64,000 nucleotides of DNA, taken from the NCBI RefSeq assembly GCF_020782115.1, contig NZ_JAJGMW010000019.1, positions 1-64,000 on the forward strand. The letters are read 5' to 3'. A program made the position numbers and the translations under genes. Below are positions 6,756 to 29,600 of the stretch, in pieces. The notes under the pieces are model-generated. The model did no database searches and was not told the DNA's origin. It saw only the letters and a program-made list of their open reading frames with translations. This stretch comes from Leeuwenhoekiella parthenopeia (lineage in GTDB: Bacteria > Bacteroidota > Bacteroidia > Flavobacteriales > Flavobacteriaceae). Each line of letters opens with the position of its first letter. The stretch's first letter is position 1.

Positions 6756-6795
6756 TCCAGATACCAAGACGTAATAAGCCCCAAAGCTTAGAAAC

Positions 6796-8482: not shown

Positions 8483-8486
8483 AGCG

Positions 8487-12065: not shown

Positions 12066-14828
12066 CTAATTTCTTACGGTCACAGAAACATTATCTACGT
12101 TAGCAGAAACACTACATCCCGCATCTCCACCGCAAACCGACTCGATAAGCAACGACAGCCCTTCACTCACATTCGTTCCTGCGGGAATGGTATAGGTCGC
12201 TGTAAACGTTGTCCAGGTATCGGTTAGGGCGGGCCTTGGATCAAAAACCTGCGTAAATGAGGCACCATTCGCAGTTTCACCAAATAAAATCACATTAAAT
12301 ACCGCTCCGGGCTGAGTTACGGAACCTATATGATCAAATTTTACCTCGATCACATCTCCTGCTTTTACAACGCCGGCACCAAATCGCTCTTGTTTAATGG
12401 CCGGGTTACTAGGACCATTAGTACTAATCTTCGTAGATGCTGCACTTCCATTACCTAAAGAATTATCCAAAATGGAGCTGCCTCCATTTTGAAAAAATGT
12501 CCATCCGGTTTCTCCGGCTTCAAAACCACCATTGGTGATAAAGTTATCAGAAGTACCACCGCCACCGCCGGTTCCTCCGGTTCCGCCGCCGGTGTCATTG
12601 CGAGTGAGGGATACATTGTCAATATTTACAAGGCCTACTGCGCCACCGTTATCAAAAAGTACGCGGCTGTTTGCATCACCAAAACCATTTGCTGTTAGCG
12701 TTAAGGTATACGTTGTACGCTCTGAAGTTATAGCTACATTTGCTGATGTATTGGCAAAATTACCGTCACTCAAACCTATCCCGGCTATTATGGAGCGATT
12801 GCGATCAGACCAGGCGTCAAAAGTAAGCGTATAGGTAGCGTCCGGAACAATGGTTAATTTTTGGCTCAGGTTTACTAAAAACGCATCACCCGCAGTTTCT
12901 ACGTTAACCGAATAAAAGGTATTTCCATTTTCGGTAGTAGTGGGCGCAGGGTTACTTCCTACTCCTACCGTCCAGGGGCTGGCTCCGTCTTCAAAATCAC
13001 CATTTACGAGCAATCCTGAATCGAAATCACTTCCGCCACCTCCGCCGGTGCCTCCGGCAGCTTCCAATCTAAGATCATCGAGGTAATAGGTGCCGTTTGC
13101 GGTAATTGCATCATTAGCCTGATTGTTATCGGGCTTAATAACCAATTGATTGTAAGCCGTAGGCGCAGCCGGTAAATTGGTGAACGTAAACTGAACTTCT
13201 GTCCAGGTATTTGCTTCCGGAATCGTTACAAAAACGGGAGCAGGATTACCGGTTACCGGAACGGTTTGAGGATCAACCGCAAGCTCAAATCTAAAGACCA
13301 CATTCGCTTTAGTGGAATACACTTTAAGTTTGAAGGTATTGGTCGTCGTTAAATCAAAATTAGGATTGAAGGTGTTTTGAATACCTGCAAAGAAACTTGA
13401 ACCGGCAGGCTTGTCAACACGAAGTACATAATCTGAGGTATTTATACCTGTTTTGCTTGGGTTATCGGCAAGACCTGAAGTGATACCGTCTCCAAAATTG
13501 TTGGAAGCTAAAAAGGTCTGACAACCTTCAAAATTTAAAGGAAGCGTTGTTGCGGCTACCGGGGTACCGGTACAGCCACCTCCGCCGGTTCCTCCGGGGT
13601 TACTGTCACTTCCGTCACCTCCTACTACAAGGGAAATATTATCCAGAACCACAACACCAGTATCTGCACCCATATCAAAAAGCACGCGGCTGTTTGCACC
13701 GCCAAAGTCGGCAGCACTCAATTGCAGGGTAAAGGTTTGGGTTTCTGTGGTCAGATTGATTTGTGGAGCCGTATTGGTAAAAGGGGCTTCGTTAAGACCA
13801 ATACCCGCGAGAATCGTTCTGGCGCGATCTGATGAAGCGTTAAACGTCAGAATATAATTGGTTCCCTGAGTGATTTCAACAACCTGACTCAAATTCACAT
13901 TAAAAGGTTCCCCTGCAGTTTCTACGTTTACGAAATTATAGGTATTACCTCCTTCTGTCACGGCGTTGGCACCATTACCTATCCAGGGTTGGATACCTGC
14001 CTCAAAATCACCATTTATCAACAAGCCTGAATCAAATGGTGGTACCGGAGTTTCAATCTGTGCAATATCATCTACATAAAACGTATCGGCAGTATTGCCC
14101 GGGCCATCTGCAAAGAGGGTCACTCGCGAATAACTCGCTGCAGAATTAAAGTCAAACTGAAGACTTTCCCAACCGCTACCGGTATGGTTTGCACTCACCT
14201 CAACATCTGCACCGGTACCCTGTTCTAATTTCAACAGAACCGGAATCGCAGTTTCAGACCAGAAATTCATCGTGATGGTTTTCTCAGTGGTCAGATCTAC
14301 AGCCATACCCACATCGAAGGTGATTCCTTCAAACTGGTTACCTGCATTAACGATTTCACCTACCTGAGAAGCTTTATCATTTGATCCCGAAACGTCAGGA
14401 TTGGATACAATTTGAAAAGTCGTACCATTAAAGGTATTTACCACATAATTCACATTAGGATCGTCAAAAGTCACCGGAAGATTCATAGGTAATGGAATGT
14501 TGATCACTACAGTATCTGTAAAACTATCTGAACCACCCGCAGCGTTTTTAGCCGTCAGGGTTACTTCATACGTACCTGTTCCAAAAGCTCGCATGGGGTT
14601 GATCTCTTTAGAAGTACGCCCGTCGCCAAAATCCCAGCTGTACATCGTAGCTTCTTCTGAGGTATTGAAAAAGGTAACTGCCCCGGTATCTTCATCAAGG
14701 GTATAGGTAAATCCTGCCGAAACTTCCGGCAATTCTGCATCATCTTCTTCGCAGGATACGAAAGCGACAAGGCTTAGCACTACTGCCAGTACTCCGGCAA
14801 ATTTTATGTTCTGTATAAATTTTCTCAT
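12066..14828 (-). CDS. Multi-module PKD / carbohydrate-binding lipoprotein of the PUL
   Basis: 920 residues from the ATG at 14828, chosen because a lipoprotein signal (lipobox FVSC, Cys26) starts there; a frame 30 codons longer would overlap the previous gene. Modules in order: PKD domain (about 35-110, YSWDFGDG), a beta-sandwich module (about 115-256) like those of the triple-module protein of this PUL, a CBM4/9-like module (266-401), a further jelly-roll-like module (430-592), a second CBM4/9-like module (606-742), and a last CBM-like module (765-919). Glycine-rich linkers separate them (near 405-420, 592-600 and 747-760). No catalytic domain is recognised. It is probably a surface anchor that captures glucan. 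It begins 10 bp after the GH16 gene ends, so the two are co-transcribed. Confidence 0.8.
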   Translation of the reverse strand: MRKFIQNIKFAGVLAVVLSLVAFVSCEEDDAELPEVSAGFTYTLDEDTGAVTFFNTSEEATMYSWDFGDGRTSKEINPMRAFGTGTYEVTLTAKNAAGGSDSFTDTVVINIPLPMNLPVTFDDPNVNYVVNTFNGTTFQIVSNPDVSGSNDKASQVGEIVNAGNQFEGITFDVGMAVDLTTEKTITMNFWSETAIPVLLKLEQGTGADVEVSANHTGSGWESLQFDFNSAASYSRVTLFADGPGNTADTFYVDDIAQIETPVPPFDSGLLINGDFEAGIQPWIGNGANAVTEGGNTYNFVNVETAGEPFNVNLSQVVEITQGTNYILTFNASSDRARTILAGIGLNEAPFTNTAPQINLTTETQTFTLQLSAADFGGANSRVLFDMGADTGVVVLDNISLVVGGDGSDSNPGGTGGGGCTGTPVAATTLPLNFEGCQTFLASNNFGDGITSGLADNPSKTGINTSDYVLRVDKPAGSSFFAGIQNTFNPNFDLTTTNTFKLKVYSTKANVVFRFELAVDPQTVPVTGNPAPVFVTIPEANTWTEVQFTFTNLPAAPTAYNQLVIKPDNNQANDAITANGTYYLDDLRLEAAGGTGGGGGSDFDSGLLVNGDFEDGASPWTVGVGSNPAPTTTENGNTFYSVNVETAGDAFLVNLSQKLTIVPDATYTLTFDAWSDRNRSIIAGIGLSDGNFANTSANVAITSERTTYTLTLTANGFGDANSRVLFDNGGAVGLVNIDNVSLTRNDTGGGTGGTGGGGGTSDNFITNGGFEAGETGWTFFQNGGSSILDNSLGNGSAASTKISTNGPSNPAIKQERFGAGVVKAGDVIEVKFDHIGSVTQPGAVFNVILFGETANGASFTQVFDPRPALTDTWTTFTATYTIPAGTNVSEGLSLLIESVCGGDAGCSVSANVDNVSVTVRN

Positions 14829-14838
14829 AATACTGGTT

Positions 14839-15693
14839 TTAAAAGTTTCGTTGTCCATTGCTTTCGTAAACGCGTACGTAATCAACGAGCATGGTTTGTG
14901 GGAATACGGTTTCTGCATTGGGCGAGCCTACAAAGCTTCCACCCACGGCGAGGTTGAGAATGATGTAAAAATCGTGATTGAAGACCCACTCGCCGGGAAC
15001 ATCATCGGGAGTGATCTGATTATAAAGCACGTCATCTACATAAAAGTTGATGTATTCAGGTCCCCATTCAATACCAAATATGTGAAAACCGGTATCAAAA
15101 CGGTCGCCCTGCAGTTCGTAACGCTTCGAAATGGATTGCCCGGCAGAGTAGCCCGGTCCGTGAACCGTACCTAACACCACAGTAGGTTCCTGCCCGCGGT
15201 ATTCCATAATGTCTATTTCGCCTATTTGTGGCCAAATTTCCCCCGGAATGTCTGAACCTAAAAGCCAGAATGCCGGCCAGATTCCCTGCCCGTAAGGCAG
15301 TTTGATGCGGGCTTCATAACGACCATAGGTATTCTCAAATTTGCCTTTGGTAAGCAAACGTGCAGAGGTGTACCCTGAACCCTGAAAATTCTCTTTCCGG
15401 GCGGTAATGAGCAGGTAGCCGTTTTGCACACTTACATTCTCACTGCGACTGGTGTAATACTGAAGTTCGTTATTGCCCCAGCCGTTTTGTCCGGTTCCGA
15501 TATCGTAGTTCCAGATGGAAGCGTCTGGCGCGCCATCCTGATCAAAATTATCTTCGAGTATCAAATCTTCGAAAACAGCCACAGTCTGCTCTTCGCTGGT
15601 GTCACAAGCCGCAAAAGCAAATACAACAGCAAGCAGGGCAAGTTTCGATTTGGCAACCCGAAGCATTGGTATAAATCGTTTCTTATCTTTCAT
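14839..15693 (-). CDS. GH16 endo-beta-1,3-glucanase (laminarinase-like), lipoprotein
   Basis: 284 residues. The signal peptide ends in lipobox AFAAC (Cys30), giving a lipid-anchored single-domain GH16. The catalytic signature is GEIDIMEY, with nucleophile E159, helper D161 and acid/base E164. The NNELQYYT segment (about 74-81) and the WPAFWLLG strand (139-146) are usual for laminarinase-type GH16. It should cut internal beta-1,3 (or mixed-linkage) glucan bonds with retention, at the cell surface or in the periplasm. The gene lies 11 bp after the Ig-like lipoprotein and 10 bp before the multi-module protein, in the middle of a tight operon. Confidence 0.92.
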   Translation of the reverse strand: MKDKKRFIPMLRVAKSKLALLAVVFAFAACDTSEEQTVAVFEDLILEDNFDQDGAPDASIWNYDIGTGQNGWGNNELQYYTSRSENVSVQNGYLLITARKENFQGSGYTSARLLTKGKFENTYGRYEARIKLPYGQGIWPAFWLLGSDIPGEIWPQIGEIDIMEYRGQEPTVVLGTVHGPGYSAGQSISKRYELQGDRFDTGFHIFGIEWGPEYINFYVDDVLYNQITPDDVPGEWVFNHDFYIILNLAVGGSFVGSPNAETVFPQTMLVDYVRVYESNGQRNF

Positions 15694-15704: not shown

Positions 15705-17102
15705 TTATTCGGTGTAGAAGTAAATGTTATCCACGAGCAATTCGTTTATTTCTGCACTTCCCTGAAAAAGAATAAGTCCCAGATTGGTGCGCGTGGTAAG
15801 TGCTGTAAAGTCTGAAAGTGGAATATCTAGCGTGACCCACTGCCCGGTTTGTAAGCGGTCTGCTGTTATTTTGATACGGGATACGGTGTCGTCTCCTCCA
15901 CCGGTTACAGCGTCACTGCCGTAATCCTGTAATTCAATATCGATAAAGCTACTCGCATTCAGATTTATACCTTCGGGGATGTACAAATCAATATGTAAAC
16001 CGGTCATTGCTGATGCATTTACACGGCCAAATTGAATTCCTACGAAATTAAAGTCGGTATAACTGATGATGCTGTTGCCGTTGATATTTAGATCATCTCC
16101 ACCAAGGGTGGTCTGAAAAGGCTCAAAAAAGCCGTTATAGAAATCAACATTCACATTGGTATAGGCATCACTATACACCGAAATCACATTTGCAGCGGGG
16201 CGTGTAGGTGTGGGTGCCAGTTCAAAAGCACCTCCCACATTGAGCGTGAGCGAACCAGCCGCACGTACACCGCCTACTAAAGCGGTAATGACCGCAGTAC
16301 CTTCATTGAGCGTGGTCACAACACCCTGCTCGTTGACTAAAGCCACGCCGGGGTTTGATGTTTCAAACGTGAAATAACCCGGAGCAGCATTAACGGTTTG
16401 ATTTACCCCGTTTGCCAGATTGAAGGTTTGGGTAAGACCGGTTACAGGAATGGTAATATCTGTAAATGTAGTTTGCTCCACATCCTCACCGTTTAGAATT
16501 GATGGTCTGGGCTGCGCTACTGTACCCAGTTTTTCAAATTGCACTTCATCAACCCAAAAGGTATAGCCGTCGCCATCTTCAGGACCCTCTGAGTACCAAA
16601 AGAGGCCGCTTTCAGCAATGAGTTTTGACGGATCAGGAATCGGGATTATGTATTTCACCCAGTTTGTGCTGATGCGCAGATTGGTTTTGGTTACCAAAAA
16701 TTTATTTTCGCCAAAATTGTTGCCAAAGCCAATCTCGTTTATAGTCGCTGCCTTTGTTGCTTTCGCCCAAAAGGTAAGGGCGTCATAACCCGAAAGGTCA
16801 CGCGGACTATTTGTAGGGAAAACAGCACCCGCGTAAGCCCCTCCGGGATCTCCAAAATTTGGTACATCTATACGCATAGAAGCTTCACCATCATAGCTGA
16901 CTTCTGAATCGACCGTAAAGGCGTCGAGTTTAGATCCTTCAAACGGGAAGTAATTTAAGCCGGCGGTAAAGCCATCGAGAAATACATCGCCGTTGCTTGC
17001 ATAGGTTGCAAATTCAACATCGTCAGACAGGGGTCGTTCACAGGCGGTAAAACCTATTAAAATACCTGTACATATGAGTTTATATAAATTTGTTTTCATC
17101 AT
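15705..17102 (-). CDS. Ig-like (Big_2) lipoprotein, probable surface glycan-binding protein
   Basis: About 465 residues from the double ATG at 17102/17099. A longer frame from 17159 would overlap the upstream gene and bury the lipoprotein signal (GFTACERP). Residues about 25-190 form a jelly-roll-like domain (TFWAKATKAATINEIGFGNN... YTFWVDEVQFEKLG), followed by a bacterial Ig-like domain (about 210-295, with VALVNEQGVVTTLNEGTAVITALV) and a second jelly-roll-like C-terminal domain ending LLVDNIYFYTE. No catalytic signature was found. The place in the operon, 4 bp after the barrel-fused hydrolase and before GH16, suggests a glucan-binding surface protein. The ligand is not demonstrated. Confidence 0.72.
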   Translation of the reverse strand: MMKTNLYKLICTGILIGFTACERPLSDDVEFATYASNGDVFLDGFTAGLNYFPFEGSKLDAFTVDSEVSYDGEASMRIDVPNFGDPGGAYAGAVFPTNSPRDLSGYDALTFWAKATKAATINEIGFGNNFGENKFLVTKTNLRISTNWVKYIIPIPDPSKLIAESGLFWYSEGPEDGDGYTFWVDEVQFEKLGTVAQPRPSILNGEDVEQTTFTDITIPVTGLTQTFNLANGVNQTVNAAPGYFTFETSNPGVALVNEQGVVTTLNEGTAVITALVGGVRAAGSLTLNVGGAFELAPTPTRPAANVISVYSDAYTNVNVDFYNGFFEPFQTTLGGDDLNINGNSIISYTDFNFVGIQFGRVNASAMTGLHIDLYIPEGINLNASSFIDIELQDYGSDAVTGGGDDTVSRIKITADRLQTGQWVTLDIPLSDFTALTTRTNLGLILFQGSAEINELLVDNIYFYTE

Positions 17103-17106
17103 CTCT

Positions 17107-20100
17107 CTAGTTACCAATGTTGATATGTATGTATGTTCTGATTTCCCATTCGTTTCCATCGGGAAAACCTACCGGACTAATTGTGGGTTGAGTAGCAAAT
17201 TCTTCTCCCTGCAGGGGTGCGTAGCGGTTTGAAAATTCGTTAAGTGAGCGCCATGTGCCGCGAACACCGATGCGGGTATTGGGCAGAATAAACCAGCTGG
17301 GTTTGCCCAGAGTTGTTGACACATCAAGCATCAACTGCACCGGAAAAGTGAGGTTAAAATCGCGGTGGTAGTCAAAAGGCCCCCAGTCATTGATCTTAAA
17401 GGAATGGATAAACTTAAACTTGTTATAGATCACCCGGATGTCCCCACCTACCCGCTCGATCAAACGTGGATCGCTACCACGAGCCTGGGCGTTACCTAAG
17501 TACATATTGGCAATCAGACCCAGATTAGGTGCTGCTTTTGAAACGATACGGGTGTTGAATTCCCATAAATCTTCTGCCGGTACGGAATTGGGGAAAGCAA
17601 ATGAAGTACGGTTACCCAGGAAACCAATCGCGGCATCCATAGTTGTAGGTAAATGCCAATACACAAAACCGGCGTTGAAGGCAAATTTCGCGTCTTCCAT
17701 CTCATCGTTATCCCAGGCGTACATCCAGGTTCCCGGTGTAGGGTCATACGTTAGCAGGAACTCACCTGCAACCGTTTCCCGGTTTTCACGCACCGAAAAC
17801 GGATCGTCCTGAATGTTACGCAAACGTGCCGGAGCTGGTGCGTCGTTTGGAATGGCTTCCACCAAAGGTTTTTGCCACAGGAAATTAGGTGCAAGCGTCC
17901 AGTTACCGGTGAGATAGGTAAACCCGGAAAGGAAATTGGTAATATTTCCACCTCCTACATCTTTTAATCTCCAGCCGGTAAAAGTCTGGGTTTGATCAAA
18001 ACCGCTGCGGGCTACAAGACCCATGGCCGATCCCTGAGCGTACCAGTTTAAGGGACCACTTGAGAACGTTATTTTTGCTTTACCTCCCCAGTTATCCATT
18101 GAATTTACCTTGTCTGTATACACGATGTAATTATCAGGGTTATCGCCGCGTACTACCTGAAATTCGCGGCCATTAAGCGGTTGTCCTGCCCAAATGGCTC
18201 CGGCTTCAAAACCGAATTTACCCAGCGTGGTTTTACCCTGAAGGGTTACGCGTCTGGTTTTAGGCTGGGGAATCGCTATTGAACTGACTGTAGTACCGTA
18301 ATCGTCAATATCTTCGTGATAGATGGCAGCTACATCAACGTTTTTGAACTGCTTGTAATATTTAAGGAAAACAGCCGGGTTTGCGCCCCACCACAATTGA
18401 GGGCCAAAGGCTACTTTAAAATCTTTTAGGGCTTTTTTACCATCAACTTCAAAACCTAAAATCTCCCCGTTGTAGATATCGAGGTTGGGCCCGTAATTGG
18501 CTTCAGGATACAGACCGAAGAAGTCGCCCTCGTAACCCCAGTGGTAATGCCCGGTACGGTAGAATCCGCGTAGGTCAAAGTACTCAGCATTCCACTCGTA
18601 TTCGGCGCTGTACACCTGTACACGATTCACATCGGTAACATCTACGGTGCCGTCCGGACTTAAAAAGCGTCTCGCGCGTGCCCGGTTTTCGTAGAAAATC
18701 TCGTCTATGGGATTTTCGGCCACATTGCCTACGATGTTGAAATTTACTTCTGCACGCATATTGGCAGTAGGATTCCCTTCCACACCCACATAATAGGATT
18801 GCATATGGTCAAAGCCCAGCTCATCGGGGTACATCATCGCGTCTGGATCTGCATCACGAGGCGTGGTAATGAGGCTTCCGCCGGTGTTGAAAGTCGTGAA
18901 TTCGGCTCTTAGGTTGCTGAGTCGCGCTTTGCTGTTGAGCTCCACTCCCAAAGCCGCTTTATCGCCACGGGCACGCAGTACCGCGTCCATGATTTCGATA
19001 TCCTTAAAGGCGGTTGAAATACTTTCGGCAGTCATTCCGCCGGAATAAGGGTTCAGGCTATGCGCTTCTTTTAACACATAATAGGCTGCACGCGGATACA
19101 GATCGTAGAGTCCGCGTTCGTTAGTAGGGCCTTTGGCACAAATACCAAACCACTCTTCGTTCATATTGTTTTCGCCATCGCGGAAATCAAACGCGTAACC
19201 CCCGTTAGACCAGGACGCATTGTTGTCGTGTACCGAAAGATTTTCGGTCTGACCGTATTTCCACCAGCCGTCGCTAAACTGAAAGGTAAAACCTCCAATA
19301 GAGTTACCGGCTTTACCCATACCCGAAGCATTGGCATAAATTTCTTCCCAGTTGCTTTTAAGGTATTTGGCCTGAGCTTCCTGATCTTCCTGGTTTTCGA
19401 TTGCGTTAAATGCGTCAGAGCCAAACTCGGTAAACATAATTGGCATATTGAGTTCGTCCCGCACCCGGGTGAACGCATCACCAAAAGACATTCCCCGATA
19501 CACGTTTGTACCAAAAATATCCACGTCTTTACACTCCTGTTTGATGATTTCAAGAAACAGCAAATCCCCGTTACACATCGCTACGGGATGATCGGTATCG
19601 ATCGCCTTCATCGCTACGGCAGCATCGTTAAACAATTTGTACATAGCTTCGGCACGTATGGTAGACTTGCGATCTTCAAACGGAATATCTTCGGTCTCTG
19701 CACCGTCCCAAAACAGGCCGTAGTTGTTTTCATTACCCAACAGGAACATCAAAAGACCGCGGGTGTTTTTGTATTTCGCAGTCATTTCGGTTACTTCCTT
19801 AAGCAGCAACTCCCGGGTTAAGGGATTGGAATACTCGGTATTGGCAACCCATTCCCCATTAAGGGTAAGACCATAGCGCCCAAAAGAATGGTTGAGCATG
19901 GTATAAATCCCATAGTTGTCGTAGATATAGGTAATCCATCGCGGCTGAATACCGGTGTACTGGCGCACCACATTGACCCCCATATTTTTGAGAAGCCCCA
20001 TCTCTGAATCGAGCGCAGCCTTGATAATATCATCAGGCTGATTCCACAGACTGTATGAAAAGTTAGTACCTATGGGAAAGTAATCCCAGTTCATCCCATT

Positions 20101-20235
20101 TATCATAAATGGTTTGCCTTCAACCAGCAATTGCATACCCCCTGCATTCTTATCAACCATGACTCGCTGAGTCTGACTGATTAATGCGGAACTGTACAAA
20201 ACAATAGCCAGCGCAAGTAGTTTTTTGTAAATCAT
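17107..20235 (-). CDS. Clan GH-A glycoside hydrolase fused to a predicted outer-membrane beta-barrel
   Basis: 1042 residues with a signal peptide (MIYKKLLALAIVLYSSALISQ). Residues about 25-395 form a clan GH-A-type TIM barrel: a GNENN motif with the probable acid/base E169 after strand 4, and FTEFGS with the probable nucleophile E270 after strand 7. Similar active-site motifs occur in GH2, GH5 and relatives; I cannot name the family. Residues about 430-1042 have no enzyme motif but show many short alternating, aromatic-rich strands (DLRGFYRTGHYHWGYEGDFFG, SFKINDWGPFDYHRDFNLTF) and end in a beta-strand (EWEIRTYIHINIGN), as in outer-membrane porin-like barrels. It probably displays a glucan-active hydrolase on the outer membrane. 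It sits in the PUL 230 bp after GH16 and 4 bp before the Ig-like lipoprotein. Confidence 0.75.
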   Translation of the reverse strand: MIYKKLLALAIVLYSSALISQTQRVMVDKNAGGMQLLVEGKPFMINGMNWDYFPIGTNFSYSLWNQPDDIIKAALDSEMGLLKNMGVNVVRQYTGIQPRWITYIYDNYGIYTMLNHSFGRYGLTLNGEWVANTEYSNPLTRELLLKEVTEMTAKYKNTRGLLMFLLGNENNYGLFWDGAETEDIPFEDRKSTIRAEAMYKLFNDAAVAMKAIDTDHPVAMCNGDLLFLEIIKQECKDVDIFGTNVYRGMSFGDAFTRVRDELNMPIMFTEFGSDAFNAIENQEDQEAQAKYLKSNWEEIYANASGMGKAGNSIGGFTFQFSDGWWKYGQTENLSVHDNNASWSNGGYAFDFRDGENNMNEEWFGICAKGPTNERGLYDLYPRAAYYVLKEAHSLNPYSGGMTAESISTAFKDIEIMDAVLRARGDKAALGVELNSKARLSNLRAEFTTFNTGGSLITTPRDADPDAMMYPDELGFDHMQSYYVGVEGNPTANMRAEVNFNIVGNVAENPIDEIFYENRARARRFLSPDGTVDVTDVNRVQVYSAEYEWNAEYFDLRGFYRTGHYHWGYEGDFFGLYPEANYGPNLDIYNGEILGFEVDGKKALKDFKVAFGPQLWWGANPAVFLKYYKQFKNVDVAAIYHEDIDDYGTTVSSIAIPQPKTRRVTLQGKTTLGKFGFEAGAIWAGQPLNGREFQVVRGDNPDNYIVYTDKVNSMDNWGGKAKITFSSGPLNWYAQGSAMGLVARSGFDQTQTFTGWRLKDVGGGNITNFLSGFTYLTGNWTLAPNFLWQKPLVEAIPNDAPAPARLRNIQDDPFSVRENRETVAGEFLLTYDPTPGTWMYAWDNDEMEDAKFAFNAGFVYWHLPTTMDAAIGFLGNRTSFAFPNSVPAEDLWEFNTRIVSKAAPNLGLIANMYLGNAQARGSDPRLIERVGGDIRVIYNKFKFIHSFKINDWGPFDYHRDFNLTFPVQLMLDVSTTLGKPSWFILPNTRIGVRGTWRSLNEFSNRYAPLQGEEFATQPTISPVGFPDGNEWEIRTYIHINIGN

Positions 20236-20465: not shown

Positions 20466-21251
20466 CTATTCCAGCTCATAAACCCGCACATAATCAATAC
20501 TGAATTCCTGTGGGAAAATCGTATCGTCAACCTCCGGTCCGCCGAAGTTTCCGCCGATGGCCAAATTCAGAATAAAATAGAAGGGCTGGTCAAAAGGCCA
20601 AACGGCTTCGGTTTTATCTTCGGGATTAAAGGTGTACACCAACTGATCGTCTACAAAAAAGTCTATTTTCTCAGGTGACCATTCTGCTGCATACACGTGA
20701 TAGGCATCTTCAATACCCGGAAATTGGGTCTTTTTGGTATTAATGGTATTGCCGTGGCTATCCGGCGTATGCAAGGAAGTGAAAATCTCCCCGGGTTCAC
20801 GACCTACATACTCCAAAATATCGATCTCGCCACAAGCCGGCCAGCCCACTTCGCTGATGTTTGCCCCCAGCATCCAGAAGGCAGGCCACAGGCCGTGACC
20901 TACAGGTAATTTGGCACGGGTTTCCATACGACCATATTGAAACTCGTGCTTGTCTTTGGTGGTAATTCGGGTAGAAGTATAGGTATCACCATCTTTCTTT
21001 GCGGTGATGATTAGCTTCCCGTCTTCCAGCCGGTGGTTCTCTTTGGTATAAATCTGCCGCTCGTTATTACCCCAGCCACACAGATTGGGACAACCATCGC
21101 CCAATTCGTAATTCCAGGATGCCTCATCCAGGCTTTGTCCGTCAAATTCTTCGGCCCAAACCAGTTTTTGATTTTGGGCATTGCCGCTGTACGCTATAAG
21201 CAAGACTAGCAATGCGGTTAATTTTAGTGTTTTCATAGTATTTTTCATCAA
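20466..21251 (-). CDS. GH16 endo-beta-1,3-glucanase (laminarinase), short secreted form
   Basis: 261 residues. The signal peptide is best read from Met6 (ATG at 21236, MKTLKLTALLVLLIAYSGNAQ); the first ATG is at 21251. It is a single GH16 domain with GEIDILEY, nucleophile E142, helper D144 and acid/base E147. The WGNNERQIYTKEN segment and WPAFWMLG strand are laminarinase-like. An extra Cys pair (CPNLC, about 54-58) is present near the N-terminus. It has no lipobox, so it is probably periplasmic or released. It most likely cuts beta-1,3-glucan chains or imported oligomers. It follows the PKD-GH16 gene by about 100 bp. Confidence 0.93.
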   Translation of the reverse strand: MMKNTMKTLKLTALLVLLIAYSGNAQNQKLVWAEEFDGQSLDEASWNYELGDGCPNLCGWGNNERQIYTKENHRLEDGKLIITAKKDGDTYTSTRITTKDKHEFQYGRMETRAKLPVGHGLWPAFWMLGANISEVGWPACGEIDILEYVGREPGEIFTSLHTPDSHGNTINTKKTQFPGIEDAYHVYAAEWSPEKIDFFVDDQLVYTFNPEDKTEAVWPFDQPFYFILNLAIGGNFGGPEVDDTIFPQEFSIDYVRVYELE

Positions 21252-21350: not shown

Positions 21351-23018
21351 TCAGTCACGCTGATAGACGCGTACATAATCTACTTCCATACTGGACTGCT
21401 GGAAACCGGGATCAACGTCACCTCCAAAGTTTCCGCCCATAGCTACATTGAGGATCATAAAAAAGTCCTTATCAAATGGCTTGCTCGCATCATTCTGAAA
21501 AATGTGGTAGAGCTCGTCATCTACGTAAAAACGAATCTGGGTCTCGGTCCATTCGGTTGCATACACGTGAAACTCGGTTGAAGCAGTAGGCACGGTTGTG
21601 CTTTCACTTACGCCATTTGCTCCAAAATTTTCCGGGAAGTGCAGGGTTGAGAAGACGGTATTCTGCTCACGGCCTACGTGCTCCATAATATCGATTTCTC
21701 CGGCTGCAGGCCAGGCATTGGTCTGGTAGTCTGCACCCAGCATCCAGATTGCAGGCCATGTACCTACGCCGGTAGGCAATTTGGCTCTCACCTCTACTCT
21801 ACCAAAGGTAAACTCCTGTAAACCTTCAGACTTAATACGCGCCGAAGTGAACGGCTGCCCGTTGAACTCTTCACGTTTAGCAGTGATTTTAAGCATTCCG
21901 TCTTCAACAATCACGTTTTCCGGACGGTCTGTATAATATTGAACTTCGTTATTACCCCAGCCGGCCTGACCTACGCCAATATCATAAGTCCAGTTTGCTG
22001 AACTTGGAGCACCGTTAGTATCAAATTCGTCTGACCAAAGCAGCGTTGGAAACTCATCTTCTTCGGCAACCGGACCTGTACTTTGAACAGGTTTAGTAGA
22101 CGTAAAAATCTGATACCAGGCTAAGAAATCATCATTGCCCTGAATGGCACGGGTAACCATACGATTTTCGGTAATTGAGAGAATTTCATATCGGGTGGTC
22201 CCAATATAATAGCCCATAAAACCACCGTCGTTAAAGGTCATCACCGTTCCGCGCTTGCGCTCCGGAGCAACAACCGATTCTGAAGGTCCTAAAGTAACGG
22301 TCTGTGTACCACCTGAAGTCGTATCAAACTCATAACACTGGTCGTCTGGCGAAGTACCGCCTGCTACGCTGGCATAACTTCTGTTAAAGAAGGTAGCACC
22401 ATTATTGTCGTACAGGTAATTTAGATTTTCACCATTTGTGGTGCTGAAAATGAATTCGTCATCGTACGCACAGCTTGCGGCATCAAAGTTCAGCGCGAAA
22501 GGATCGGTAAACGAGAAGAATGCCCAAAAGTAGTTTTGGCTTAGATCATCGTTGTTTGGCCCTACACCCAAATGGTTAGGCACATCTGCCGCCCAGTACC
22601 AGGTTTTGGTGGAAGGACTTCCGCTCGCGGGATTATATCCCGTTAACAGCTCAATCGCATCAAGATCAGAAAAATCACTTTCTACCTCAACTACGATGAG
22701 TTGCGAAGTACTTACCCCTGCCTGCCCGTATGCAATAACAGTTACGGTGTAGGTATTTAAACCGGTTTTGGTAAAACGTTTGGTATACACCCCGCTTGGC
22801 GCAACGTCTGAAGATCCGTCAGGAAATATAAAGCGATACGTAATTGCATGATCTGCAGTTGCGGTAAAGGTTACATTACCCGACCCGTCTGTCGTAATAT
22901 CTGTAGACACGGTAAGATTTTGAGGTACAGCGACTGACTCAAGAGTCGCGTCGTCGTCCTGACAACTAAATGTCAGAAACAAACTCATTACCGTAACTAG
23001 TTTTAAAATAGTTTTCAT
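21351..23018 (-). CDS. PKD-GH16 laminarinase lipoprotein with extra middle domain
   Basis: 555 residues. The lipoprotein signal ends TFSC (Cys19). Residues about 30-112 form a PKD/Ig-like domain. Residues about 113-315 form a separate domain (AIELLTGYNP... WYWAADVPNHLGVG... FLAWYQIFTS) resembling the module found ahead of GH16 in other Bacteroidota PULs. Residues 325-555 are GH16 with GEIDIMEH, nucleophile E441, helper D443 and acid/base E446. It is expected to be the surface endo-glucanase that makes the first cuts. It begins 10 bp after the triple-module binding protein, so the two are co-expressed and probably cooperate on the cell surface. Confidence 0.92.
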   Translation of the reverse strand: MKTILKLVTVMSLFLTFSCQDDDATLESVAVPQNLTVSTDITTDGSGNVTFTATADHAITYRFIFPDGSSDVAPSGVYTKRFTKTGLNTYTVTVIAYGQAGVSTSQLIVVEVESDFSDLDAIELLTGYNPASGSPSTKTWYWAADVPNHLGVGPNNDDLSQNYFWAFFSFTDPFALNFDAASCAYDDEFIFSTTNGENLNYLYDNNGATFFNRSYASVAGGTSPDDQCYEFDTTSGGTQTVTLGPSESVVAPERKRGTVMTFNDGGFMGYYIGTTRYEILSITENRMVTRAIQGNDDFLAWYQIFTSTKPVQSTGPVAEEDEFPTLLWSDEFDTNGAPSSANWTYDIGVGQAGWGNNEVQYYTDRPENVIVEDGMLKITAKREEFNGQPFTSARIKSEGLQEFTFGRVEVRAKLPTGVGTWPAIWMLGADYQTNAWPAAGEIDIMEHVGREQNTVFSTLHFPENFGANGVSESTTVPTASTEFHVYATEWTETQIRFYVDDELYHIFQNDASKPFDKDFFMILNVAMGGNFGGDVDPGFQQSSMEVDYVRVYQRD

Positions 23019-23028
23019 AGATTATTTT

Positions 23029-25161
23029 TTATTGCTGAACAATATCATCAAGATAGAAGGTACCTGCTGTAGTACCCGGACCGTCAATAAACAATACTAA
23101 CGTGCCGTACTGACCTGTAGGAACAAATGGTTCACCTACTCCCTGACTGCCATCTATATAACTTTTAACAGCTTCTGTGGCAAAATTAAAGGTCATCGTT
23201 TCCCATCCGGTTCCACCGTGGGTTTTAGAAATTTCGTTTTGACGTTCGCCATTCACGCCACCTTCAAATTTCAGCAATACAGGAACCGATACGTTAGACC
23301 ATACTTTCATCGTAATGGTTTTATTAGAACCACTGAAATCTACCGGCTGCGATAAATTGTAAGCACCACCTTCCCAGTTTCTGCCCGAGTTGGTCAATGC
23401 TCCCACGTTTGAAGCGCTGGTGTTTGCACCAGACTGATCAGGATTTGCCACTACCTCAAAGCTCGAACCGTTAAAAGTTCCCATTGCGTAATAGAAGGCC
23501 TTATTGTCAAAATTTATAGGAAGCCTTGGTGCCGGATTCTTCTGGATATCATCAATGTAGAACGTACCAGCAGTAGTACCGGGACCATCAACAAACAACA
23601 CCAGTGTATTATACTGACCTGTTGGTACAAATGGCTCACCTACTCCCTGACTGCCGTCAATGAAGCTCTTTGTTGCTTCGGTAGCGAAATCAAAGGTTAA
23701 AAGCTCCCATCCCGAACCGGTATGTGCTTTTGAAATTTCATTTTGACGTTCCCCATTTACACCACCTTCAAACTTAAGCAGTACAGGTACCGATACGTTA
23801 GACCATACTTTAATCTGAATGGTTTTGTTTTCTCCACTGAAGTCTACCGGCTCAGAAAGGTTGTACGCAACACCTTCCCAGTTGCGACCGCTATTAGTGA
23901 TTGCCCCAACTTTTGACGCTCTGGTATTCGCTCCGCTTTGATCGGGGTTTGTAACCACTTCAAAAGAAGTCCCATTGAAGGTTCCCATAGTATAATCAAA
24001 GGCCGCCTGATCGTAGGTAACAGGAAGTTTAGGAGCTGCAAGGCCGGTTTGCTCGATATCATCAATGTAGAAGGTTCCGGCCAGGGTACCGGGGCCATCT
24101 ACAAAAATAGTCATTGCTGTGTATTGGCCCGTAGGCACAAAAGGCTGCCCTCCGGTATCACTTTGATCGATATAGCTGGTATTTGCTTCTGTAGCAAAAT
24201 TAAAGCTTAGCTCTTCCCATCCGGTACCACCGTGTGCTTTAGAAATCTCATTCTGGCGTTCTCCATTTACACCACCTTCAAATTTCAGCAGAACTGATGT
24301 AGGTTTATCTGACCAAAACTTCATCGTAATAGTTTTATCTGCACCGCTAAAGTCTACCGGAGTTCCCAGGTTGAACGTACCTCCTTCGAACTGTGCTCCA
24401 CTATTTTTAATAGCGCCAACATTAGAATCTGAAGTGTTTGCCCCAGACTGATCTGGATTTGCAACCACTTCAAAGATTACTCCGTTAAAGGTTACGAATT
24501 CGTAGTTTACATCAGGATTGTCAAACGTAATAGGCATTACGATGGGGTCAACTGCACCCGCAACCAGAATAGATTTGGTAAGTTCTACAGTTTCAACCGA
24601 AGCTGCACGTGCAACTACTCTAATATCGTAGGTTCCGGGTTCGGCATACTCATAAACCGCAGACTCACCGGGCATAATCGTAACCGGCTCCTCCTCATCT
24701 CCAAGACCAAAATACACGTCAAATTGTGCTGCATTGGTAGCTTCAGGCGTTACGGTAAGCTTAAGACCACTTACCGAAGTGGTAAAGGCCAAATTTTCGG
24801 GAGCTGTAAATGATATAATCAGGTTTTGATTGTATTCACTGGTAAGCCCGGTAGCTCCTGTCGCCACGATTCGTACCAGATACTCACCTTCCGTATAGGT
24901 AAAGTTTACAGACTCACCGGCATTGATGGTTATTGCACTGTCCCCTTCAATCCCCGAATACACCGTAAAGGTTGAAGCCCCTTCACCCACCGGCGTAATT
25001 GTCACAAGACCCGAATCATCCTGAGTTACGACAAAATTGGCTTTCAGATTTTGGGGTGCCGAAATATCTTCAAAGGCGTAATTGGTGATGATATCTTCCT
25101 CACAGGCGGTAAACGCGGTCACTGCCGTAAGAACTAACACTAAGAGTTTAAAAATTTTCAT
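23029..25161 (-). CDS. Surface glycan-binding lipoprotein with three tandem repeated modules
   Basis: 710 residues, lipobox FTAC (Cys20). Two PKD/Ig-like domains (about 32-118 and 119-202) are followed by three highly similar modules of about 163 residues (about 209-371, 379-541, 547-710). Each has the same landmarks: FNG..FEVV.NPDQSGANT, LLKFEGGVNGERQNEIS, FVPTGQY and a GTFY-DDI end. The position right after SusD is where SusE/SusF-like surface glycan-binding proteins sit, and no catalytic residues are recognised, so binding of beta-glucan is the likely role. Related single modules occur in the protein at 12066-14828. It lies 18 bp after susD and 10 bp before GH16. Confidence 0.85.
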   Translation of the reverse strand: MKIFKLLVLVLTAVTAFTACEEDIITNYAFEDISAPQNLKANFVVTQDDSGLVTITPVGEGASTFTVYSGIEGDSAITINAGESVNFTYTEGEYLVRIVATGATGLTSEYNQNLIISFTAPENLAFTTSVSGLKLTVTPEATNAAQFDVYFGLGDEEEPVTIMPGESAVYEYAEPGTYDIRVVARAASVETVELTKSILVAGAVDPIVMPITFDNPDVNYEFVTFNGVIFEVVANPDQSGANTSDSNVGAIKNSGAQFEGGTFNLGTPVDFSGADKTITMKFWSDKPTSVLLKFEGGVNGERQNEISKAHGGTGWEELSFNFATEANTSYIDQSDTGGQPFVPTGQYTAMTIFVDGPGTLAGTFYIDDIEQTGLAAPKLPVTYDQAAFDYTMGTFNGTSFEVVTNPDQSGANTRASKVGAITNSGRNWEGVAYNLSEPVDFSGENKTIQIKVWSNVSVPVLLKFEGGVNGERQNEISKAHTGSGWELLTFDFATEATKSFIDGSQGVGEPFVPTGQYNTLVLFVDGPGTTAGTFYIDDIQKNPAPRLPINFDNKAFYYAMGTFNGSSFEVVANPDQSGANTSASNVGALTNSGRNWEGGAYNLSQPVDFSGSNKTITMKVWSNVSVPVLLKFEGGVNGERQNEISKTHGGTGWETMTFNFATEAVKSYIDGSQGVGEPFVPTGQYGTLVLFIDGPGTTAGTFYLDDIVQQ
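23032..24537 (-). repeat. Three tandem copies of a binding-module coding unit, about 490 bp each
   Basis: Copies lie at about 24537-24049, 24027-23539 and 23523-23032. At DNA level the copies differ mostly at third codon positions while the protein is strongly conserved, which points to an older duplication under protein-level selection rather than a very recent event. Confidence 0.8.
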
Positions 25162-25179: not shown

Positions 25180-26652
25180 TTAGTATCCTTGATTTTGTTC
25201 CCATCGGTTTCCGGCCAGTTCGATTTCGATTGACGGGATGGGGAATAATTCGTTTTTATTGGGTGTAAAGCCGGGTATCTCATCTGCCGCGCGACCGGTA
25301 CGAACGAGGTCGAAGAAACGGTGTCCTTCGCCTACCAGCTCCAGTCTGCGCTCTGCATAAATAAACTCGGTGAGTGCTGCGCCGGTTGCCACGATATCGT
25401 GGTCCAGATCTCCAAAAGCCCTGCGTCTTACGCGGTTAAGGTACTCCTGTGCCAAAACATCGTTAGGATTGGTCTTACGGTTGTGCGCTTCTGCAGCCAT
25501 AAGCAATACATCAGCAAAACGAATAGACCGGTAATTATTGGGATTGGTAAGGTTAGCATCTCCCAGGTTGGCATCGCCTTTACGCGGTAAGTATTTACGG
25601 TTGAAATAACCCGTATGCTCATAACCTTCGTTATAGGTTGCGCCGGTGCGTGCTGCAAAGGCTTCAATATCTAAAATCGCATTGTCCTGACGGCTGTCTC
25701 CCGGTTCAAAAGCATTGTAAGCTTCGGCTACCGGCACGTTAAAGCTGAAACCGCTGTCAAATTCAGGACCTGAATAATTACGTATTCCGTTAAAACCAAC
25801 GGCTACGTTACCTTCACTACATTGTAAACATCCAAAACCGGCTCCTTCCTTATCGGTGTACTGTACTTCAAACACAGACTCCACGCTGTTTTCACCTTCC
25901 TGAAGAAATAAAATAGAATAATCATCAAGCAAATCATAAGGACCTGCGATTACCTGATCAAGCGCGTTTGCAGCTTCAGTAAATTTATCCTGATACAGGT
26001 AGGCTTTGCCCAAAAGCGCGCGAGCAGCACCACTGGTAACGCGACCTTCCTGAGCCTGAGTGGCCGGCAGGTTTTCGGCAGCAAAAATCAAATCCAGCTC
26101 AATCTGTGCATAGACTTCTGGAGCCGGAGTACGATCTACATTAAACTGATCTCCAAACAACAAACGCTGATCTACGGCAAGCGGCACATCACCAAACCAT
26201 TTTACCAATTCAAAATAGTAATAGGCTCTTAAAAAACGGGCCTGGGCAATGATTTCATTTTTACCGTCAAAATCAATTTTATCCTGAAACTCCAGAATGT
26301 AGTTCGCCCGGTTTACGCCGCTAAACATCCAGCCCCAGATATCACGCAATTGCTGATTAACCGGAGTATGGGTCATATTATCAATCTCCTGTATTCCGGG
26401 AGTATCGGTAGCGCTTTCTCCACCGGCAAGGGTGTTGTCGGAAGCAATTTCTCCTACCAGAACATTCAGATACGTGGCCTGTAATAAATCATAGGCACCC
26501 ACCAGGGCAAGTTCGTAATCCTCCGGGGTATTAAAGTAGTCCTCAGAATTTTCATTATTAGGCGCTACATCAATAAAGTCTTCCCCGCAAGATGTAAAAA
26601 GCAACAGGGCAGAAAGGCCTAAAATTTGAAAGTATGTTATATATTTTTTCAT
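25180..26652 (-). CDS. susD: SusD/RagB-family glycan-binding lipoprotein
   Basis: About 490 residues from the ATG at 26652, chosen because the lipoprotein signal (MKKYITYFQILGLSALLLFT, then SC) starts there; a longer frame from 26766 would overlap susC. Family landmarks are the NSEDYFNTPEDYELALVGAYDLLQ N-terminus, helical TPR-like stretches (ARFLRAYYYFELVKWFGDVPL, ARALLGKAYLYQDKF) and the C-terminal RRLELVGEGHRFFDLVRTG segment with a final NRWEQNQGY. It forms the lid of the SusCD outer-membrane importer and captures oligosaccharides. It starts 10 bp after susC ends. Context indicates beta-1,3-glucan oligomers as cargo. Confidence 0.97.
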   Translation of the reverse strand: MKKYITYFQILGLSALLLFTSCGEDFIDVAPNNENSEDYFNTPEDYELALVGAYDLLQATYLNVLVGEIASDNTLAGGESATDTPGIQEIDNMTHTPVNQQLRDIWGWMFSGVNRANYILEFQDKIDFDGKNEIIAQARFLRAYYYFELVKWFGDVPLAVDQRLLFGDQFNVDRTPAPEVYAQIELDLIFAAENLPATQAQEGRVTSGAARALLGKAYLYQDKFTEAANALDQVIAGPYDLLDDYSILFLQEGENSVESVFEVQYTDKEGAGFGCLQCSEGNVAVGFNGIRNYSGPEFDSGFSFNVPVAEAYNAFEPGDSRQDNAILDIEAFAARTGATYNEGYEHTGYFNRKYLPRKGDANLGDANLTNPNNYRSIRFADVLLMAAEAHNRKTNPNDVLAQEYLNRVRRRAFGDLDHDIVATGAALTEFIYAERRLELVGEGHRFFDLVRTGRAADEIPGFTPNKNELFPIPSIEIELAGNRWEQNQGY

Positions 26653-26662
26653 CGCTCTTCGT

Positions 26663-29600
26663 TTAAAATTTGAAGTTAAGTCCGGCTGTATAAATGCGCG
26701 GTACCGGGTAGAATCCCTGGTCAATACCGCCTCCAATAGGAGCTCCTGAAGATGCAGAAGGATCAAAGCCCTGGTATTTGGTTAGGGTAAAGGCATTAGC
26801 CACAGCCACGTAAAAACGCAGTTTACTAATTCCCAACTGCTCAATAACGTCATTGCCCAGACTATATCCCACCTGAACGTTCTGAAGTCTCAGGTACGAA
26901 CCATCTTCCACATAAAAATCAGAAAACAGCAAATTTGAGTTAGGCCCAATAGTCACCCGGGGATAGGTATCTGTAGAACCGGCACCAATCCATCGGTTTA
27001 AAACATAGTTGGTCTTGTTGGTCAGGTTTTGATTACGGTCGTAAGCCCGTACAATGTCATTACCAATTGATGCATAGGCATAAGCGGTAAAGTCAAAGTT
27101 TTTATAATTAAACCCGATGTTCAAGCCCATCGTCACATCAGGAATAGGATCGCCAATATTGACACGATCATCACCGTCTATCACTCCGTCACCATTTTGA
27201 TCTACATAACGTAAATCTCCCGGCACTGCATTTGCCTGCGTGGCGTGCGCATCAACCTCAGCCTGGGTTTGGAAAATACCGTTGGTTTGTAACCCGTAGA
27301 AATAACCTATTGGGAAACCGGCTTCCATACGTGCCGGAGCTTCCTGACCAAAACCAAATGAACCGCCTGGTATGAATCCACTTTGATTTCCTACCTGAAG
27401 CACTTCGTTTTTAAGGGTTGTAAAGTTGTATCCAATGTTGAAATCGGCATCATCGCTGATGATCTGGTTGTAGTTGATTGAAAATTCAAAACCTCTGTTC
27501 TCAACACTACCGGCATTTACAATAGGCGGAGAAGATCCCGGAGCCGTAACCCCTAGCAATCCTGAAACCTGAGGCACCAGTAATAAGTCTTCAGTACGCT
27601 TATTAAAGTAATCTGCGGTTATTCTTATGGCAGAACTAAACAATTCCAGGTCAACACCTATATCGTAGGTTTTTTGTCGCTCCCATTTAATTTCAGGGTT
27701 TGATAGTTGTCCAGGTGCAACGCCAAAGACCAATTCGTCGTCAAAAACATAGGTGCCTTCTCCATTGAGGGTTGAAACAAACCCAAAGGCTCCAATGCGG
27801 TCATTACCCAGCAAACCGTAACTACCTCTTAATTTGGCGAAATTTATAAATTCACTATCAAAGAAATCTTCATCACTTAATACCCAACCCCCTGATAAGG
27901 CATAGAAATACCCAAATTTATTTTCAGGTCCAAAATTTGAAGAACCATCTCGTCTCAGCAAAGCAGAGAACAAGTATTTTTCTTTAAAGTTGTATTGCAA
28001 GCGCGTAAAATAGGATAATAAACGCTGGTCAAATTCATTGGGGCCACCACTCACCGTACGTGCATCAATAACTTCCTCTGCACCAACAAGGCTTGCTTCT
28101 GCAAAGGTATTACCCGGTACACCGCGGCCGGTGAAGTTGTAAAACTCTCCGCTGGTTCTAAAGGCCGACATACCCAAAAGAGCTGTGATGTTGTGATCAT
28201 CGGCGATGGTATTGGTATAAGTCAACAGGTTATCCCAGGTATAATCCCTGAAGAAACTATCGTTTACGAAGTACTCGTTACGTCCCAGGTTATTAAACAC
28301 TTTACCATCACCATAATTTAATCCGGATGGGTTAAAAGCACGATTACGAACTTCCGAATAGTTGAACTGATAGTTCGATTCGATTTTGAAATTGTCTAAG
28401 AATCCATAGGACAAACCCACAGTACCGGTAATTTTATCAACCTGAGTACCGTTGAAGGTATTGGCAATTTGCGCAACGGGATTGATTACCTCATTTCCTA
28501 AACCGGTAGCTAAGGTAAAATCGCCGTTAGCATCCCGCACCGGTCTGGTAGGATCCATATTAACTGCGTTGAAGAGTACTGATCCTAATGTGTTTTCAAG
28601 CAGCGTGCTTCGGTTAGAATTGGTGTAAATACCCGAAGCTTTAAATTTCAAGTTATCGGTAATATCGAGATTATAGCTTCCGCGACCGGTAAATCGCTCA
28701 AAGTTTGCTGCACCGCCTCCTACTATACCGTCCTGATCGAGATAACCCAAACCAATAGAATACGTAGAATTTTCGCCCCCGGCATAAATAGTAGCGTTTA
28801 CATCAGATAAAAAGGCTTTTCTAAAAACCTCATCCTGCCAGTCTGTACCCATACCCAGATTTCTAAGATTGGGGAATGGTGGCGCCTGATTGCCGGCAAC
28901 AAAGGCTTCATTAATAATAGCTCCGTATTCGGTAGCATTTAAAACAGGTAATTTACGTGTGGTTTCCTGAACACCTACATACGAATCTACATTTACTCTT
29001 AAGTCTGTGTTCTTACGTCCTGTTTTAGTAGTGATTAAAATAACACCGTTGGCAGCACGAACTCCATAAATACCGGCAGTTGCGTCCTTTAGAACATTTA
29101 TACTTTCAATATCATTAGGGTTGAGTACACTTAAGTCTTCAATTACCGCTCCATCAACCAAAATAAGAGGACGGTTGTCTCCATTGGTTGAAATACCTCT
29201 AATGTTAATGGTTGAAGCACTACCGGGAGAACCTGAGGTCGAACTGATGTTAACCCCCGCAACGCGCCCTTGTAGCGCCTGTTCTATGCGTACCGGGTTT
29301 TGCTCTTCGATAGTTTCAGAACCTACCACAGCAACGGCTCCGGTAACCTCTTTACGGGTTTGTGTACCGTAACCAATTACCACTACCTCTTCTAAGGCAC
29401 TGGCATCTTCTACCAGTTGAACGGTGATGGGATTGGTACTCGTAACAGTTACTTCCTTGGGTTGAAAACCCAGATACGAAAAAACCAGGGTACCTGATTG
29501 CAGAACTGAGAGGCTAAATTCACCGTCAAAATTTGTACTGGTCCCTCTTGAAGTTCCTTTTACAATGACATTAACCCCGGGAAGTGGCATTCCCGTCATA

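Follow-up and report, generated by a model that had tools for sequence, protein, structure and literature searches.

A glycoside hydrolase fused to a predicted outer-membrane barrel

The 64,000-nucleotide stretch of Leeuwenhoekiella parthenopeia DNA analyzed here (contig NZ_JAJGMW010000019.1, positions 1 to 64,000; hereafter the window) carries a gene that appears to join a glycoside hydrolase (GH) to an outer-membrane beta-barrel in a single polypeptide. The product comprises a signal peptide (residues ~1–21), a clan GH-A domain (~25–400), two linker helices (403–411 and 415–434) and a predicted barrel (438–1041), and it is 98% identical over the protein to the copy in L. nanhaiensis. The gene and its two halves are as follows.

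17107..20235, minus strand: fusion gene, 1042 residues (open reading frame [ORF] call, Pfam, AlphaFold2, Foldseek)
19036..20163, minus strand: catalytic GH-A domain, residues ~25–400 (GH158 profile matches, hhalign, Foldseek)
17110..18924, minus strand: predicted outer-membrane beta-barrel, residues 438–1042 (AlphaFold2, Foldseek, loop/turn alternation, conservation of the polar face)

A first-pass annotation had described this ORF as a hydrolase displayed by its own barrel, and much of that description held. The ORF is real and lies on the minus strand; the two active-site glutamates had been placed correctly, E169 in GNENN and E270 in FTEFGS; and the protein has a signal peptide instead of a lipoprotein anchor. 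The N-termini of fusion proteins are signal-peptide-like, with a cysteine among residues 9–40 in 19 of 76 aligned rows. By eye, these cysteines lie within the hydrophobic stretch preceding an AQ/SQ-like site, and they look lipobox-like in L017, L062 and perhaps L048 (L denotes a locus, G a genome). Glyco_hydro_2_C was the only Pfam family above cut-off on the fusion protein (residues 35–292, E = 1.2e-6), and an NCBIfam scan of it gave no match up to E = 1.

The catalytic domain adjoins GH158 and GH157

Across 26 aligned relatives, some fused and some barrel-less, N168, E169 and E270 do not vary. By homology, E169, which follows N168, would serve as the acid/base and E270 as the nucleophile. 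Alignment, hhalign and AlphaFold2 together identify a clan GH-A retaining hydrolase, with a TIM barrel, an N-E acid/base and a glutamate nucleophile. A GH-domain profile of the 26 relatives matched two solved sequences at E ≤ 0.001, 6PAL (3.8e-6) and 9ORO (1.2e-4), both GH158 by title; it replaced a profile whose E of 5e-23 we discarded because a true GH158 in the alignment had inflated it. Compared by hhalign with three GH158-type proteins, the domain scored 98.5% (2.6e-15) at ~23% identity, and E169 and E270 were aligned to the matching glutamates. The best Foldseek matches of the whole model were GH158(Pro) (4e-12) and LaGH157 (6.9e-12), followed by beta-glucuronidases. An excerpt of PMC7157763 describes the endo-beta(1,3)-glucanase BuGH158, deposited as 6PAL, and names N136-E137 and E220 in it.

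Membership of GH158 itself was not supported: the single sequence matched at E = 0.13, and the profile reached 3.8e-6 over part of its length, versus 7.7e-88 for a true GH158. GH2 fared no better, since the fusion shares only the TIM-barrel domain with it (Glyco_hydro_2_C) and the sandwich and immunoglobulin-like domains went unmatched. In L014 the fusion shares its locus with a true GH158 (16786–18129; 9ORO, 7.7e-88), and relatives 71–74% identical to that GH158 occur at the fusion locus in L057 (17093–18412) and L158 (177–1505). Because genuine GH158 enzymes sit beside the fusion in these three loci, the fused enzyme is predicted to be a separate family or a deep branch adjoining GH158 and GH157. 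GH158 (BuGH158, 6PAL; GH158(Pro), 9ORO) resembles it in its clan GH-A fold, in the matching N-E and nucleophile positions and in its occurrence in beta-1,3-glucan polysaccharide utilization loci (PULs), but is only ~23% identical, has no barrel and coexists with the fusion. GH157, represented by LaGH157, is the next-best fold match and has laminaribiose in its PDB title, whereas its solved chains have ~528 residues, with no barrel named. These nearest families are known from beta-1,3-glucan enzymes, and laminarin is the likely substrate.

Distant relatives of the enzyme (~25–28% identity, ~330–350 residues) occur beside a 1151-residue ORF in L121 (8148–9203) and L123 (8553–9545) and could represent another branch of the enzyme family.

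The C-terminal half is predicted to form a large barrel

Relatives were drawn from a synteny set, the 80 best loci in genome_contigs, which are near-full-length and 65–98% identical, with flanks that are often cut. The whole protein was modelled with AlphaFold2 from an alignment of 76 sequences covering 75 of these loci (L030, L031, L047, L052 and L070 were left out), which gave a mean predicted local distance difference test (pLDDT) score of 74.7 and a predicted TM-score (pTM) of 0.53. Residues 407–1042 alone, modelled from 51 sequences covering 50 of the 80 loci, gave 72.5 and 0.71. Long beta strands run throughout residues 438–1041 in both models. Each contains 23 strands of at least eight residues, or 24–26 in total by our count; the barrel claimed at first pass, for which a closed barrel of 14 or more strands had been named as support, agrees in strand number with the prediction.

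When residues 407–1042 were compared with the PDB by Foldseek, the top 50 matches were all outer-membrane barrels by title, namely TonB-dependent receptors (BtuB3G3 at 7.3e-10, OprC, PirA, BtuB, ZnuD and others), LptD and MOMP, with query TM-scores of 0.26–0.37, which point to a fold class only and not to a family. BtuB3G3 already ranked 20th in the search with the whole protein (E = 1e-9). Among the best seven matches in a viral library, those with names were two porins, a SusC and, weakly, two autotransporter beta-domain proteins. Sequence searches were less informative. Pfam gave nothing better than E = 0.03 on the barrel half in 51 members, and a PDB sequence search with that half returned one chance match (E = 0.97). 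The first-pass annotation had looked to profile searches of each half: the hydrolase half was placed near GH158 in this way, and the barrel half was left without a Pfam or PDB sequence match. TonB plug and carboxypeptidase-regulatory-like domains were not matched by Pfam in the fusion protein, which therefore does not classify as a TonB-dependent transporter or SusC. It does combine the features of an outer-membrane barrel, with a signal peptide lacking a lipobox, long amphipathic strands, alternating turns and loops, and a fold match. We conclude that the C-terminal half is a large predicted outer-membrane barrel, an architecture well supported by prediction and conservation.

From the model we assigned 26 strands, one of which we completed and two of which we added. 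The median segment after an odd-numbered strand is 19 residues long, and relatives carry 278 inserted letters in such segments, compared with 2.5 residues and 20 letters after even-numbered strands (p = 8e-5); the exceptions are odd segments of 4, 5 and 7 residues and one even segment of 10. When only the 23 long strands were used, the gaps alternated likewise save at the sites of the three completed or added strands, so the parity of this partly hand-made assignment is likely to be right. In outer-membrane barrels, long loops usually lie outside and short turns on the periplasmic side. Because long segments follow odd strands and short ones follow even strands, and because the number of strands is even, both barrel ends are likely to be periplasmic, and the enzyme attached to the N-terminus would reside in the periplasm or in the pore, barring its export through the latter. 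The earlier proposal of surface display by the barrel therefore does not agree with the predicted topology, short of such threading.

In an automatic test independent of the assigned strands, conservation was higher on the polar than on the hydrophobic strand face in 27 of 38 sequence windows (p = 0.0024). The same test gave 23 of 37 (p = 0.05) for SusC (six sequences), no significant difference for the immunoglobulin (Ig)-like lipoprotein (IgLP), the conserved GH16 (GH16a), the surface glycan-binding protein (SGBP), PKD-CBM4, SusD and the enzyme's own GH domain, and an effect in the opposite direction for GH3 (p = 0.04). Conservation of the polar face is more readily explained by a functional lumen than by a soluble sandwich. 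Helix 415–434 continues almost directly into strand 1 in each model, at low confidence in that of residues 407–1042, and might be either a plug or an autotransporter-like pore helix.

Two classifiers separated their training classes well, with areas under the curve at the protein level of 0.994 and 0.997; the training proteins were TonB-dependent receptors, other outer-membrane proteins and lipoproteins of the same genome. L229_8956, a training negative, was dropped for the hidden Markov model (HMM) classifier because on inspection it looked like a BamA-type protein bearing a lipobox. Strand counts from the HMM were set aside as unreliable, since it gave 16 for SusC against an expected 22; its count for the target was 15. 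An amphipathicity z-score proved unable to separate barrels from beta-sandwiches (target 3.3, SusC 3.3, IgLP 3.4, SGBP 3.4). With a mean entropy of 0.18, the long loop after strand 5 (562–590) hardly varies; it contains many aromatic and acidic residues and is possibly a sugar-binding or pore-lining loop.

The fusion gene lies in a beta-glucan locus

Upstream of the fusion gene in the window are genes for SusC, SusD, a probable glycan-binding lipoprotein and two GH16 enzymes; downstream are those for the Ig-like lipoprotein, a GH16, a PKD-CBM4 protein and a GH3.

9706..11985, minus strand: GH3 beta-glucosidase (Pfam Glyco_hydro_3; NCBIfam BglX over cut-off)
12066..14918, minus strand: PKD-CBM4 protein (Pfam CBM_4_9, 2.1e-29; PKD_4, 9.1e-11)
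14839..15693, minus strand: GH16, a conserved gene of the module (Pfam Glyco_hydro_16, 8.1e-26; GH16a relative at most four ORFs downstream in 73 of 80 loci)
15705..17102, minus strand: Ig-like lipoprotein with lipobox and Big_2-like domain (next gene in 80 of 80 loci; Pfam on relatives)
20466..21251, minus strand: GH16 (Pfam, 2.2e-26)
21351..23018, minus strand: GH16 with PKD-like N-terminal part (Pfam, 2.3e-25; PKD, 7.3e-4, below cut-off)
23029..25161, minus strand: putative surface glycan-binding lipoprotein (galactose-binding-like match barely over cut-off; PKD below cut-off; clusters with the lipoprotein/carbohydrate-binding module [CBM] group)
25180..26766, minus strand: SusD-like protein (PF07980, 7.4e-26; PF14322, 7.1e-22)
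26663..29698, minus strand: SusC-like TonB-dependent transporter (Plug, 6.3e-21; CarbopepD_reg_2, 1.2e-20)
29948..32767, minus strand: sensor-regulator with Y_Y_Y domain (PF07495, 1.3e-8; synteny)

With three GH16 enzymes, a GH3, SusC/SusD and a PKD-CBM4 protein, the locus is, judged from these domains, the beta-glucan PUL that the first-pass annotation had recognized. The Ig-like lipoprotein is likewise where it had been placed, starting at 17102 and separated from the fusion gene by 4 nucleotides (17103–17106). Among 21 of its relatives, Pfam found Big_2 in 18, CBM_11 in 5 and CBM30 in 2; CBM_11 and CBM30 were not matched by Pfam in the window's own copy. The modules flanking the Big_2-like domain look carbohydrate-binding-like. 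A search for the Bacteroidota-type promoter motif gave six matches versus 3.2 expected, none of them just before the fusion gene.

The fusion and its partners are conserved across Bacteroidota

At least 581 relatives were found in a pattern search of genome_contigs, from 587 matches listed; with the 80 near-full-length relatives, this points to conservation beyond chance. In a phylum sample the full query matched 47 of 395 genomes, 33 of them nearly full length, and in a class sample that overlaps it, 24 of 395 genomes matched, 17 nearly full length. The fusion protein is thus conserved at full length across Bacteroidota. The barrel profile matched 35 of the 395 phylum-sample genomes, with at most three candidates scored per genome, and none of these matches was a free-standing barrel; they were fusions, fragments (G204, G235) and a remnant in G119. 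A 600-residue ORF of G546 with a weak barrel match is, by eye, a LepA-type GTPase.

The neighbors are conserved as well. In the synteny set, the Ig-like lipoprotein is the next ORF at all 80 loci and GH16a lies within four ORFs at 73. GH149, identified by matches at E = 0 to 6HQ6, is present at 50 (47 in one cluster plus three confirmed cut ORFs), and clusters assigned by Pfam to GH17, GH30 and the major facilitator superfamily (MFS) occur at 31, 21 and 7, respectively. A relative of the sensor-regulator is the neighboring upstream ORF, on either strand, at 55 of the 80, and the upstream side of the cluster carries UvrA (12 loci) or carbamoyl-phosphate synthase (3 loci). Thirty further loci from the phylum sample, with cut flanks, contained GH16a (29), GH149 (26), GH17 (18), GH30 (16) and MFS (13), with the lipoprotein as the next gene in 29.

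In a Formosa Hel1_33_131 metagenome-assembled genome (MAG; L051) the fusion gene is followed by those for the lipoprotein, GH16, a CBM protein and GH149 and then, on what is presumed to be the same contig, by GH17 and a 782-residue ORF with a GH17 match. This order resembles that of PUL 2 of Formosa B, which an excerpt of PMC6246565 reports to be induced by laminarin, its GH16 FORMB_m24690 exclusively so; the tags adjoining FORMB_m24690 are GH17A, GH30 and an MFS-GH17 fusion. A laminarin PUL of Muricauda is described, in an excerpt of PMC13188888, as containing LuxR, GH2, GH16, GH149 or GH3, GH17, GH30 and MFS genes, and its GH2 gene, one of those listed upstream, may be the fusion gene.

SusC and SusD are undetected at most fusion loci

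SusC/SusD were detected at 8 of the 80 loci, and at 7 of the 51 whose flanks each exceed 7.5 kb, by BLAST against the window's SusC and SusD at more than 100 bits, a search that could miss distant SusD types; L061 had one SusC-like match below that cut-off. Among the 30 phylum-sample loci they were found in 4, all of the window's own family. We also searched 31 of the 33 near-full-length genomes (G204 and G305 were left out) for SusD by PF14322, and 9 of the 31 by PF07980. PF14322 matched within 10 kb of the fusion in five genomes, all of the window's family; in the others, the nearest same-contig match listed was more than 27 kb off, or there was none among the matches listed. Four genomes, G051, G066, G144 and G255 (L141, L143, L147 and L151), had no SusD by either profile. 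In three of these four, no TonB-dependent receptor was matched on the contig of the fusion; in G255 the nearest is ~18 kb away. That SusC/SusD go undetected at most loci suggests a channel role for the barrel rather than that of a mere anchor.

At three of the four SusD-less loci, a ROK-like gene (by Pfam in L151, with a similar start in L141 and L143) lies between the lipoprotein and the GH16.

Barrel-less relatives of the enzyme

Nine proteins of ~430–480 residues lack the barrel and are 53–62% identical to the enzyme in eight cases and 57% in the ninth; a tenth candidate, L119, was cut by the contig end and left out. GH149 is present at eight of the nine loci, all but L112. Also confirmed were GH17 (L111, L116), GH30 (L112), MFS (L116), GH16 (L111, L113, L114) and GH3 (L112). 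A lipobox-like motif occurs in five of eight of these relatives, by pattern and in one case by eye. We had considered that barrel-less relatives might always be accompanied by SusC/SusD, and dropped the idea when both were found only in L111, L113 and L193.

A tree built from 56 of the 106 fused rows, the nine standalone proteins and two outgroups (67 rows in all) required six changes. In L117 (2025–3700), the enzyme's stop codon is followed by a decayed stretch that contains stop codons and resembles the start of the barrel; this remnant shows that the barrel was lost in this lineage. The barrel-less locus L115 has a 43% identical GH149-type gene ~2.5 kb away (1711–5187 and 7668–9008).

A candidate laminarin channel with its own hydrolase

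Laminarin is a common polysaccharide of algae, and its uptake by Bacteroidota is usually explained by SusC/SusD. We are inclined to think, with a little better than even confidence, that the fusion protein is an outer-membrane channel for laminarin with its own hydrolase at the periplasmic mouth. The nearest families and the locus context support a beta-1,3-glucan role, hydrolysis being predicted, and an import channel that carries its own enzyme is what we infer to be the best reading. In such a system, the lipoprotein and GH16 would capture and cut laminarin outside the cell, and chains would enter through the wide, polar and conserved lumen of the barrel. The N-terminal enzyme at the periplasmic mouth would cut the arriving chains, pulling uptake inward, and GH17, GH30, GH3, MFS and GH149, where present, would complete the breakdown. 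At loci without SusC/SusD the fusion might be the main outer-membrane route, and in Leeuwenhoekiella it would work beside SusC/SusD.

Several results weigh against this channel. The TM-scores to known barrels are low and the confidence of both models is moderate. The logistic classifier scored the C-terminal half at an intermediate 0.51 (mean 0.60 over 76 rows; SusC 0.88, SGBP 0.40, IgLP 0.38), and the HMM gave it +0.29, where positives score 4.95 (standard deviation 1.95) and negatives −4.41 (2.70; highest 1.55). Three conserved long loops (562–590, 739–765 and 951–963) could plug the pore. Standalone enzymes fall at five separate places among the fused rows of the tree, which we read as barrel losses, and L115 falls at the base; the place of L193, on a long branch, is unsure. 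Neither SusC nor SusD is found in the fetched stretch of six of the nine barrel-less loci (L112, L114, L115, L116, L117 and L118). Since barrel-less relatives recur at five places and six of nine of their loci show no SusC/SusD, the barrel is not indispensable. The four SusD-less genomes carry 13–31 TonB-dependent receptors, which could act from elsewhere, and an excerpt of PMC6246565 links periplasmic laminarin uptake in Formosa to SusCD-like transporters.

The last two points would also suit a narrower role, in which the barrel acts as a porin that passes only short oligosaccharides, the fusion keeps a periplasmic laminarinase at the membrane, and SusC/SusD or other receptors do the main uptake. 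SusC/SusD do accompany the fusion in the window and in four further members of the same family. Yet they are undetected at 72 of the 80 loci and at 44 of the 51 with full flanks, and the receptors of the SusD-less genomes are mostly on other contigs than the fusion or at a distance from it, as described above, so that we judge this role rather improbable. We also regard as unlikely, though less so than the porin, that the barrel is an anchor through which the enzyme is passed to the surface in the manner of an autotransporter, with helix 415–434 in the pore. In classical autotransporters a helix leads into strand 1 of a beta-domain of 12 strands and ~300 residues, and in autotransporter enzymes such as EstA, as in the fusion, enzyme and barrel share one chain with the enzyme N-terminal. 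The course of helix 415–434 agrees with this arrangement, and the lipobox-like motifs of barrel-less relatives imply that the enzyme can be membrane-anchored without a barrel. However, the barrel of the fusion, with its 23 long strands, is about twice the size of such a domain; no autotransporter is among its top 50 PDB matches, the name appearing only on the two weak viral-library matches; its polar face and several loops are conserved beyond an anchor's needs; and the loop/turn pattern places the N-terminus inside. Finally, the C-terminal half could be an unusual soluble beta-rich region and no membrane barrel. The missing Pfam and PDB sequence matches and the intermediate classifier scores would allow this, as would the last residue, which is N in the window protein and mostly K in relatives and not the common aromatic, but two AlphaFold2 models, the top 50 Foldseek matches and the face-conservation test make it very improbable.

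The proposed channel resembles SusCD pairs in combining an outer-membrane barrel with a lipoprotein for glycan uptake, and differs from them in that no plug domain was matched, the partner is not SusD, and the enzyme is covalently attached. A transporter joined to a glycoside hydrolase in a laminarin locus is also found in the MFS-GH17 fusion of Formosa B (FORMB_24740; excerpt of PMC6246565), although that protein belongs to the inner membrane and has a different enzyme and a different transporter. GH149 clusters of carbohydrate-active enzymes without susCD have already been noted (excerpt of PMC5827456), and the fusion, occurring mostly where SusC/SusD are undetected, is a candidate for their outer-membrane step. 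More tentatively, and with clearly less than even confidence, we speculate that these proteins form an overlooked family of self-contained glycan importers, each a plugless barrel of ~26 strands with a laminarinase at its exit and a glycan-binding lipoprotein as partner, that takes the place of SusC/SusD in laminarin uptake across much of Bacteroidota, with cleavage of the polymer, and not TonB energy, drawing it inward. If so, this would be an overlooked way of taking in laminarin, which accounts for more than 10% of annually fixed carbon dioxide (excerpt of PMC11345257). Searches aimed at such a fusion or at SusCD-less laminarin loci found, among the records listed, no open-licence PMC title or abstract start on one, which does not establish its absence from print.

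Variant loci

A few loci depart from the common arrangement. In L147 the lipoprotein is upstream of the fusion, a GH18 protein is downstream, and no GH16 was found. In L137 the upstream neighbor of the fusion gene, on the opposite strand, encodes a GH81 with a Por secretion tail (5448–8027). The record of L066 is titled as a Bifidobacterium breve MAG, but its cluster with the fusion is of Bacteroidota type; the bin is probably misnamed or contaminated.

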